A stretch of DNA of 64,000 nucleotides from Bacteroidaceae bacterium (GTDB taxonomy: Bacteria; Bacteroidota; Bacteroidia; Bacteroidales; Bacteroidaceae), in contig JAFWBM010000004.1 in the NCBI GenBank assembly GCA_017507105.1, positions 62,001-126,000 of the forward strand, written 5' to 3'. Within the stretch, counting starts at the first letter, position 1; every line of letters starts with the position of its first letter. A program made the position numbers and the translations under genes. The notes beneath the pieces were generated by a model. The model ran no database searches. It had not been told where the DNA came from and worked only from the letters and a program-made list of their open reading frames with translations. Shown here one piece after another: positions 31,514-40,237 of the stretch.

Positions 31514-32602
31514 TTGCATAAAAGTGTATTGGTTGGAATGAGCGGCGGTATAGACAGCACAGCTGTATGCAGTATGCTGCTGGGTAGGGGCTACAGAGTC
31601 ATAGGCCTCACTCTTGTTACATGCGACGGGTCGGTGGCTGCGGCAGAGGGTGCCAAAGCCCTGGCTTTGCGCTTGGGTATCGAACATTATGTGGTCGATA
31701 TTAGAGACGAATTCAGAACCGCAGTAATACAACCTTTTATAGATAGTTATTTAGCCGGGTATACCCCAAACCCATGTGTCAATTGTAATCCGACTATAAA
31801 GTTTCGTCTTCTCGAGGAGTGGGCCGACAAATTAGGATGTGAAAAGATTGCTACAGGACATTATGTGAAGATTCATTTCGCGGATGAAGGTGATGAGGGA
31901 TGCAGGTATTATATTGTAGCAGGCGAGGATATATACAAAGATCAGAGCTATTTCTTATGGAGGCTTACGCAGAGTCAGCTTTCAAGATGTATATTCCCGT
32001 TGGGAGAATGGGACAAGAAAGAGGTGCGGCAATATCTCGATAGCAAGGGACTTGATATCGTTGCAAAAGGCGGTGAGAGTATGGAGGTATGTTTTATCCC
32101 CGGTGACTATCGCGACTTTTTGCGAAATAACATTCCAAATGTTGATGAGGTTATACGTGAAGGTTCCTTTGTCGATTCCGAAGGACGTGTAATAGGGTAT
32201 CATCGTGGTTTCCCTTATTATACGGTAGGACAAAGAAAGGGACTTGGTATTGCACTCGGACGTCCGATGTATGTCCTGAAAATTAACCCTTTGAAGAATA
32301 CAGTGATGTTGGGTGAAGAGGAAAAACTCAAGAGTAACTATATTCTTATTGATGCTCCTGTTTGGGTAGGTAATGTCCCGGCCGATGGGCTTATGGTGCG
32401 TATACGATATCGTAGCAGGCCTATTGCATGCGATACACCGATAGAGCTCCCCGATGGTCGTTATCTCATTCATCTGCATAGTGAAGCGTCGGCTGTTACT
32501 CCCGGTCAGTCTGCTGTCTTTTATGTGGGGAATATGGTTATGGGAGGAGCTTTTATTGCATCGCAACGTGGTATAAATCAGTGGATAAGCAATGGTGATT
32601 AA
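31514..32602 (+). CDS. mnmA: tRNA 2-thiouridylase MnmA
   Basis: A 362-residue enzyme that thiolates U34 of tRNA-Lys, -Glu and -Gln. The PP-loop GMSGGIDSTA is at residues 9-18. The two catalytic cysteines are in TPNPCVNCNPTIKF (near 90) and MEVCFIPGDYRDFL (near 194). IATGHYVKI and GQRKGLGIALGRP are also family motifs. Start is TTG at 31514, as an in-frame stop precedes it and the next ATG (31538) would cut into the PP-loop. The stop overlaps xseA by 11 bases. Bacteroidota often carry more than one mnmA. Confidence 0.92.
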   Translation: MHKSVLVGMSGGIDSTAVCSMLLGRGYRVIGLTLVTCDGSVAAAEGAKALALRLGIEHYVVDIRDEFRTAVIQPFIDSYLAGYTPNPCVNCNPTIKFRLLEEWADKLGCEKIATGHYVKIHFADEGDEGCRYYIVAGEDIYKDQSYFLWRLTQSQLSRCIFPLGEWDKKEVRQYLDSKGLDIVAKGGESMEVCFIPGDYRDFLRNNIPNVDEVIREGSFVDSEGRVIGYHRGFPYYTVGQRKGLGIALGRPMYVLKINPLKNTVMLGEEEKLKSNYILIDAPVWVGNVPADGLMVRIRYRSRPIACDTPIELPDGRYLIHLHSEASAVTPGQSAVFYVGNMVMGGAFIASQRGINQWISNGD

Positions 32603-38067: not shown

Positions 38068-38391
38068 CTACATAGTAAAAAGAAGCTCGGTGTTTATATC
38101 ATCTTGAGCAATACTGTATCCGCTGTATGCAAGAGTATCTATACTTGCCGAGAAATCGCTACTAGATGTATTATAAAAATCATTGGGGGTGGCAAACCCC
38201 ACTATAAAACCTATGAGTGAAGCAGCCACCAACCAGTATGGTGATATTAGATGGTTACTGTTAGAGCGATGTTGTTTGGGGGTTACAATCGGTAATTCTA
38301 TACTTTCTTCTAATTTGTTACGCTCGTTACGAAGAAGAGATAATATGCGTTGTGTCTCCTCTTCTCTTTCTGTTTCATTCTTCTTTATCAT
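38068..38391 (-). CDS. Small membrane protein downstream of sigma factor, possible anti-sigma
   Basis: A 107-residue protein: a charged N-terminal half (about 1-50, KKNETEREEETQRILSLLR), one membrane helix (about 51-67, YWLVAASLIGFIVGFA), and a short outer tail. This cytoplasm-helix-periplasm layout and its place 12 bases after the sigma factor reading frame suggest an anti-sigma or sigma-associated protein. There is no zinc-binding HxxxCxxC motif, so it is not a typical ZAS anti-sigma. Function is inferred. Confidence 0.7.
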   Translation of the reverse strand: MIKKNETEREEETQRILSLLRNERNKLEESIELPIVTPKQHRSNSNHLISPYWLVAASLIGFIVGFATPNDFYNTSSSDFSASIDTLAYSGYSIAQDDINTELLFTM

Positions 38392-38403
38392 AACAAAACT
38401 ATT

Positions 38404-38961
38404 TTAAAGGTTATACTTACTCATTTTCTCTTTAACAGTCGCAAGAGCATAATGCAATCGAGATTTTACTGTACCTTCTGGAACGCCTGTTATTTGTGCA
38501 ACTTCTGATGTTGGCAACTCTTAAATATAACGTAATATAAATACCTCGCGTTGTACTTGTGGCAGTTTATCAATTATGTGGTGCAATATACGGGTCAGAT
38601 ATTCGCTATCCTGTAGCATTGGTTGCTCCTCGCTCTCTTCTTTGCAATATAAAGCCTCGAACCTCATTCTTACATTTCGATGCCTAAGCTCATTCTTACA
38701 TATATTGTAAGCTATTGAATAGAGCCAGCTGCTGAAACATTCGCCATTATAGTTTCTTCTATACTCGTAAACGCGTATAAAAAGTTCCTGTATATAATCT
38801 TTGGCCTCATCAACACTGCAAGCCAGCATACGAATAAAGAAACCGCACAATCGTCTGCCATAGCGATTATATAACATATCGAAAGCTACATCGTTGTCAC
38901 TTGCAACAGAAAGCATCAGTTTCTCATCGTTTTCACAGCTATTCGTCAAGTTCATATTCAT
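38404..38961 (-). pseudogene. ECF-type sigma-70 factor interrupted by in-frame TAA
   Basis: From ATG 38959-38961 the frame runs 146 codons through region 2 (IQELFIRVYEYRRNYNG, WLYSIAYNICKNELR) and into region 4 (LPQVQREVFILRYI), then hits TAA at 38521-38523. The same frame continues for 38 codons: ELPTSEVAQITGVPEGTVKS is the region 4.2 helix-turn-helix, and it stops at TAA 38404-38406. The whole would be 185 residues, normal for an ECF factor. In relatives the stop position is usually Glu, so GAA to TAA would explain it. Without the tail the protein cannot read a -35 element. Mutation, assembly error or read-through are all open. Confidence 0.85.
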
Positions 38962-40102
38962 AATAGTAGTTCCTTAACTGTTCATCAATGGCTGTATTGT
39001 TGCTTACTATCCCTTTGAGTAATGTGTACAACCTATTATACTCGGTTTGCTTGCCACGCTCTTTGTAGTATCGTAATAGTGACTTAAAGGCTGTTATGTA
39101 ATTCATCTTTAGACGCTCATATATGGGGTAGTCGTTGTTAAAACCTTCTATAAGATAGTCCAATAGATAAACATTCTCGAAATTACGTCTTTTAACAGCT
39201 ATGTTATCATATGGCTGTACACTATAGCGAAATACCAATCCTTCGCAATATAGTTTATCGATAAATGAAGGTAGTTTACTGCTCGATGAATAATATGCAG
39301 GGCGCTCACATTGTTCTATTATACGCAGGCAGGCCTCCTCGTTGCTTATATATCTGCCCGTTCCATTATCGTAAGCCACATCTTTGATAGGCTCAATACC
39401 TAACTTTTTGCAAATATAGTTACGATACTCTTCAACATATAAAAGTGGTGTAGATATAGTTACAATGTTTTTGAAGAGTCCTTTCGCATGCTGCAAAATG
39501 AGGTAAGCATATGTAGGTGTGTCTCCTGTAGCAAATAGGATTGCATTCTGTGGTAACCCTGCAAGTTCGTTGTAAAAATGGTTCAATATGCTTGGTGGAA
39601 AGTCGCGACTCTCGTACCAACGCCTGCAAATATCGGCAATAAGGGTCTCTTCATGGGGGTATTCTATAAGCAGAAATCCAAGATAATTCTCATAGAACTC
39701 AACTCTTTGCGGATATGCTTTAATAGTGTGTAACACCTTGTCAATCAGTTGCTTGTCGTTGAATGTGGGGTCGTTCCTTCTTATATAATACTCCATGATA
39801 TAACGTGTGGGGCATGTGGGCATTGTTGCAATAAGCTCCTTTACGGCATTGTTGCGTTGTTCCAATGCTATCTTGCTGCTATCGAATACGCTTATATAAT
39901 GCAAAGCCTTAAGATAGTTGTGCCATGCTGTTTCGTTTTTGTTGTCCTTGTTAATGCTCTCTTGCCACAAAGTTGCCTGTTTCTTGTACCATTCTACCGA
40001 ATGTCTTACTCTAGTGTAACTCTCTACTTTTTGCGGTTCCGCAGTTTGTGCCGATAGTGTTTGCGCGCATAATATAAACGCAATGATAATGATATTCTTC
40101 AT
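38939..40102 (-). CDS. Periplasmic protein of unknown function preceding the sigma factor
   Basis: A 387-residue protein with a signal peptide (MKNIIIIAFILCAQTLSAQ). The rest is helical with TPR-like spacing in the first half (TLWQESINKDNKNETAWHNY) and ends in a Glu/Tyr-rich tail. I do not recognise a family. Its stop overlaps the sigma-factor start by 23 bases, so the pair is co-translated; genes this tightly linked to ECF factors often sense or respond to the same signal. Confidence 0.78.
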   Translation of the reverse strand: MKNIIIIAFILCAQTLSAQTAEPQKVESYTRVRHSVEWYKKQATLWQESINKDNKNETAWHNYLKALHYISVFDSSKIALEQRNNAVKELIATMPTCPTRYIMEYYIRRNDPTFNDKQLIDKVLHTIKAYPQRVEFYENYLGFLLIEYPHEETLIADICRRWYESRDFPPSILNHFYNELAGLPQNAILFATGDTPTYAYLILQHAKGLFKNIVTISTPLLYVEEYRNYICKKLGIEPIKDVAYDNGTGRYISNEEACLRIIEQCERPAYYSSSSKLPSFIDKLYCEGLVFRYSVQPYDNIAVKRRNFENVYLLDYLIEGFNNDYPIYERLKMNYITAFKSLLRYYKERGKQTEYNRLYTLLKGIVSNNTAIDEQLRNYYYEYELDE

Positions 40103-40188: not shown

Positions 40189-40200
40189 GAGCATACACGC

Positions 40201-40237
40201 AAATAATCCCAAGGTTCAAGTTCCTCGGGATTATTTC
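40201..40237 (-). terminator. Possible terminator of the lpxK-punA-thiL operon
   Basis: A 10-bp stem (AAATAATCCC 40201-40210, GGGATTATTT 40228-40237) with a 17-base loop, downstream of the minus-strand Imm17-like gene. The large loop makes this a moderate call. Confidence 0.5.

Follow-up and report, generated by a model that had tools for sequence, protein, structure and literature searches.

An interrupted sigma factor gene in a three-gene module

The window, by which we mean the whole 64,000-nucleotide stretch of DNA analyzed here, carries on its minus strand a module composed of genes for a secreted TPR-like protein, a sigma factor, and a protein with one transmembrane segment, an order that is conserved in relatives. 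The sigma factor gene is represented by an open reading frame at 38521..38961 (minus strand), which starts with ATG at 38961 and encodes 146 amino acids comprising sigma region 2, the linker, and the first half of region 4. This frame ends at an in-frame TAA (38521..38523, minus strand), after which a tail of 38 in-frame codons (38407..38520, minus strand) encodes the rest of region 4, the helix-turn-helix, up to the original sigma stop, a TAA at 38404-38406 (minus strand). The sigma frame spans 189 codons and is open but for the one stop. Judging from this and from the 82–84% identity of the tail to its nearest relatives, the uninterrupted-looking frame and its tail are not a chance open reading frame.

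Profile searches placed the break within region 4. Sigma70_r2 (PF04542) matched residues 30–96 with 44.7 bits against a Pfam cut-off of 24, indicating a sigma2 domain. The Sigma70_r4_2 match was divided, with positions 2–24 of 54 preceding the stop (20.1 bits, below the Pfam cut-off of 25.7) and positions 26–52 following it (28.7 bits). The protein as encoded has no complete sigma4 domain, the second half of which lies beyond the stop, and the profile matches indicate that region 4 is cut at the stop, with its first half on one side and the helix-turn-helix on the other. The initial annotation, which had described an ECF sigma factor cut by TAA 38521-38523 before its helix-turn-helix, with the tail in frame for 38 more codons, was correct in both respects: the open reading frame and the two Pfam halves of Sigma70_r4_2 agree, and the next TAA is found at 38406-38404. 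The annotation named no strand; the gene lies on the minus strand.

With an X in place of the stop, the best matches among solved structures were sigma-H (6in7), SigW (5wuq), and sigma-E (1or7), all ECF-type. At the sequence level, the ancestral gene is an ECF sigma factor (group IV sigma-70), of which the present allele is the broken form. It also resembles the Bacteroides-type sigma factors of TIGR02985, an ECF family of Bacteroidetes linked to SusC/SusD loci, with 92 bits when X stands at the stop and 67.7 bits as truncated; unlike members of that family, it scored below the curated cut-off of 126.4 bits in both forms.

The first gene of the module (38939..40102, minus strand) shares 23 nt with the beginning of the sigma gene and encodes an intact protein of 387 aa whose N-terminus carries a hydrophobic, signal-like segment. 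The structure predicted for it (mean pLDDT 72) was mostly helical and TPR-like and included an alpha/beta part. Foldseek returned no match for it at or below an E value of 0.001, and because the best one, to a designed TPR, had an E value of 2.8e-3, we label the protein TPR-like and go no further. Of the 30 genera of Bacteroidaceae that were sampled, 12 contained members of its family. The third gene (38068..38391, minus strand) starts 12 nt past the old sigma stop and encodes an intact 107-aa protein, in which a hydrophobic segment (residues 48–66) follows about 47 residues. Given this topology and the gene order, which recall the class II anti-sigma factor CnrY, we infer that the 107-aa membrane protein is a candidate anti-sigma factor. 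The 107-aa protein had no Pfam match at E values up to 1, and neither neighbor had a match above cut-off in Pfam or NCBIfam. Both neighbors are open and align with relatives over nearly their full length without internal stops, in agreement with the earlier description of an overlapping secreted protein upstream and a membrane protein downstream that both looked intact. A literature search on truncated sigma factors and Bacteroides ECF operons returned nothing on this module in titles or the beginnings of abstracts.

The stop codon in relatives and its age

Comparison of the locus across relatives, carried out on 27 orthologues (8 from the genus and 19 from the family), found all of them intact and without the stop. 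In the alignment of these 27 sigma proteins with the window, the column of the stop was occupied by glutamate, encoded by GAA or GAG, in 27 of 27, and TAA differs from the relatives' glutamate codon by a single base. The stop is private to the window's genome among the orthologues examined, according to this alignment. Within the genus, a sigma match at E 1e-25 or better was found in 9 of 44 genomes, own included, and only the window's copy had an internal stop; two close intact orthologues shared 70–72% identity with the window sigma. Several genus genomes are incomplete (55–98%), which makes the patchiness of the module partly uncertain. At the family level, the upstream 387-aa protein was present in 53 of 201 genomes, own included. 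The family loci examined were the 19 best-scoring of the 52 other genomes with this protein, and in 19 of 19 an uninterrupted sigma gene lay next to the upstream protein, together with a match to the small membrane protein. This last match spanned only residues 49–69, the transmembrane stretch, in loci L069 and L071, and residues 49–107 in L072 and L081. A contig scan for same-species copies gave seven loci, the nearest 69% identical, in a search that may omit entries belonging to the window's own genome. The four nearest named relatives were Bacteroidaceae MAGs from the gut of water buffalo, yak, and water deer.

The interruption was also exceptional within the window. Among 33 window genes compared with the open reading frames of two relatives, sigma alone had an internal stop; this comparison covered the 33 of 50 genes (37 kb) for which in-frame matches extended across more than half the gene, the 17 other listed genes having no such match. 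Stops near the 387-aa gene and near 31514 precede the respective start codons. TAA is the main stop of the window, terminating 30 of 49 genes counted, and no anticodon TTA was found among 38 tRNA genes (Rfam search of the genome, 93.6% complete, and ARAGORN on stretches holding all of them). On these two grounds, recoding or suppression of TAA was rejected.

The codons beyond the stop still look like those of a functional protein. Tail protein identity between the window and its two closest relatives was 84% and 82% (pS 0.95 and 0.73), and the pre-stop part of sigma was 69% and 67% identical to the same two relatives. Counted against two outgroups, residues unique to the window versus the relative were 2 to 1 and 3 to 1 after the stop, and 9 to 9 and 11 to 11 over the whole sigma gene; these counts revealed no clear rate excess or relaxed selection on the window side. 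For most window pairs dN/dS gave no ratio because silent sites were saturated. Purifying selection seems to have acted on the post-stop region until close to the present day. By a rough estimate from sequence divergence, a stop older than a few per cent of the branch should show more changes in the tail. Given that the tail is still protein-like while silent sites are near saturation, the stop is either very recent or a consensus error.

Absence of decay fits a consensus error as well as a fresh mutation. An assembly or consensus error, with the living bacterium having a sense codon at this place and making a functional sigma factor, is in our view unlikely, though by no means negligible: the TAA is one base away from the glutamate codon of relatives, neither the tail nor the promoter site described below has decayed, and the window's genome is probably metagenome-derived (52 contigs, 93.6% completeness), as the named relatives are. 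However, the 32 other comparable genes were uninterrupted, and therefore the stretch is not generally error-prone. Conservation of the tail would also be in keeping with read-through of the stop at some rate, or with re-initiation of the tail at the TTG that forms the second codon after the stop, so that a functional or split sigma factor would still be made. We consider this improbable, since the stop occurs in none of the 27 relatives examined and no selected mechanism is therefore visible; read-through is further opposed by TAA being the commonest stop and by the lack of a TTA anticodon among the 38 tRNAs. A more specific version, in which a sigma2 fragment and a separately initiated (TTG) 37-residue sigma4 helix-turn-helix peptide would reassemble on RNA polymerase as a split ECF sigma factor, seems very improbable indeed. 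The reading that we favor, and hold to be fairly probable, is that one nonsense mutation arose recently in the sigma gene of a conserved and apparently self-activating ECF module.

A promoter-like site upstream of the module

Upstream of the module, the window contains the promoter-like site GAAC-N14-CGTGTATG (40192..40217, minus strand), of the type with AAC at −35 and CGT at −10; the site is exact in the window and is kept upstream of the module in relatives. According to passages of PMC8103513, early-studied ECF sigma factors recognize AAC at −35 and CGT at −10 and show positive autoregulation, with exceptions, and a later prediction puts autoregulation at around 55%. We fixed the site pattern from the genus loci, and the family upstream regions were listed after the pattern was fixed and before scoring. 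Twelve positions were scored and spacings of 13, 14, or 15 were permitted, and the best site had a spacing of 14 in 28 of 28 loci. Scores in the 9 genus loci were 12 (three loci), 11 (four), 10 (one), and 9 (one), and those in the 19 family loci were 12 (seven), 11 (seven), 10 (two), and 9 (three), whereas shuffled controls averaged about 8.2 and never exceeded 10. A site resembling GAAC-N14-CGTGTATG was present upstream at all 28 loci, five of which were no better than shuffles in base matches: L045, L075, L077, and L081, with 9 of 12 bases, and L046, whose score of 10 equaled its own best shuffle. Loci L072 and L079 (score 10) were at or just above shuffles, still with a spacing of 14.

A somewhat longer version of the site, sought as an exact match in the 201 family genomes, yielded 20 matches, compared with 3 for the backward pattern. 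Fourteen of these lay just upstream of the module (own included), five were inside long open frames, and one was intergenic, in genome G113. This orphan site (locus L154, G113:C12:43000-51000, near 2069) has no module beside it. In G133 (L155), from the same genus as G113, the flanks are 94% and 93% identical and the module lies between them; G113 has apparently lost the module by deletion, leaving the promoter behind. Scans for a wider regulon gave 8 matches versus 8 in the control for the window's genome with one mismatch permitted, and 16 exact matches versus 15 in the control for the genus, where three (own, G003, and G011) were module promoters and no second target stood out. Given that the site is found mainly in front of the module and is of the ECF AAC/CGT type, autoregulation and a narrow regulon are predicted, and we infer that the sigma factor activates its own operon and little else.

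The promoter-like site partly coincides with a stable hairpin (40201..40236, minus strand; −19.6 kcal/mol), with the −35 element in the loop and 3′ arm. The hairpin looks like a terminator belonging to the preceding operon and may overlap the promoter in that capacity. One occurs at the same place in L043, with quite different stem letters, and in L045, with nearly the same ones. A literature search combining the promoter word with ECF and Bacteroides surfaced only work on Clostridium among its listed results, and the string GTGTAT was absent from the part of PMC12596196 that was searched.

Expected consequences of the stop and likeness to known systems

In relatives, the small membrane protein would hold the sigma factor until a signal, perhaps via the secreted TPR-like protein, would free it, and the freed sigma would switch on its own operon. 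The 146-residue product of the window would be without the helix-turn-helix that reads the −35 GAAC, and would not activate the module's own promoter. The loop would stand open, and the module would remain at basal expression, probably close to silence. In addition, 129 nt before the membrane protein gene go untranslated because of the stop, so that this gene may be translated less. The proposal in the initial annotation that the operon would be unable to activate its targets thus describes the expected result of losing the −35-reading helix-turn-helix, the probable target being mainly the operon's own promoter. Because the promoter-like site was found mainly in front of the module, damage is probably confined to it, and loss of the module appears to be tolerated, since its distribution within the genus is patchy and at least one relative from another genus seems to have deleted it. 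Most likely, an accessory regulator has recently lost its function.

It had also been suggested that the truncated sigma factor could act as a decoy, and we found no sign of selection on the truncated product that would sustain this. Sigma region 2 contacts core polymerase, and this region is complete, as would suit a selected decoy titrating an anti-sigma factor or core RNA polymerase. However, purifying selection seems to have maintained the tail until very recently, the 27 relatives examined all lack the truncation, and half of sigma4 is missing from the product, while ECF anti-sigma factors of known structure touch both sigma2 and sigma4, as stated in sections of PMC7406223. We therefore regard a selected decoy as highly improbable. 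Under the preferred reading, a recent nonsense mutation, the allele is in itself unremarkable, another accessory regulator that broke recently, and the conserved module with its promoter-like site is the more useful result, as it leads to a prediction of autoregulation with a narrow regulon. The window's genome would be a natural knockout if the stop is real.

The module resembles autoregulated ECF sigma/anti-sigma operons of the RpoE/RseA and SigW/RsiW type in that the protein of the pre-stop era had a sigma2-sigma4 architecture matching SigH, SigW, and RpoE PDB chains, in that a membrane protein gene lies directly downstream of sigma, and in that the candidate promoter has AAC at −35 and CGT at −10, which passages of PMC8103513 name as a hallmark. 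In contrast to those operons, the window sigma is truncated, the membrane protein is without a Pfam match, and the gene ahead of sigma encodes a secreted TPR-like protein.

CnrYXH of Cupriavidus metallidurans offers a second comparison. CnrY is small, with a short N-terminal part. The window module shares with this system its layout, including a small one-transmembrane protein whose N-terminal part is likewise short and a secreted protein in place of the sensor CnrX; the mechanism of CnrY as a class II anti-sigma factor is described in parts of PMC4598750 and PMC7406223. The likeness of the 107-aa protein to CnrY is one of layout, no sequence evidence relating the two, and, unlike in CnrYXH, the 387-aa protein is predicted to be helical and TPR-like. 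CnrH matches the window sigma with an E value of 2.6e-5.
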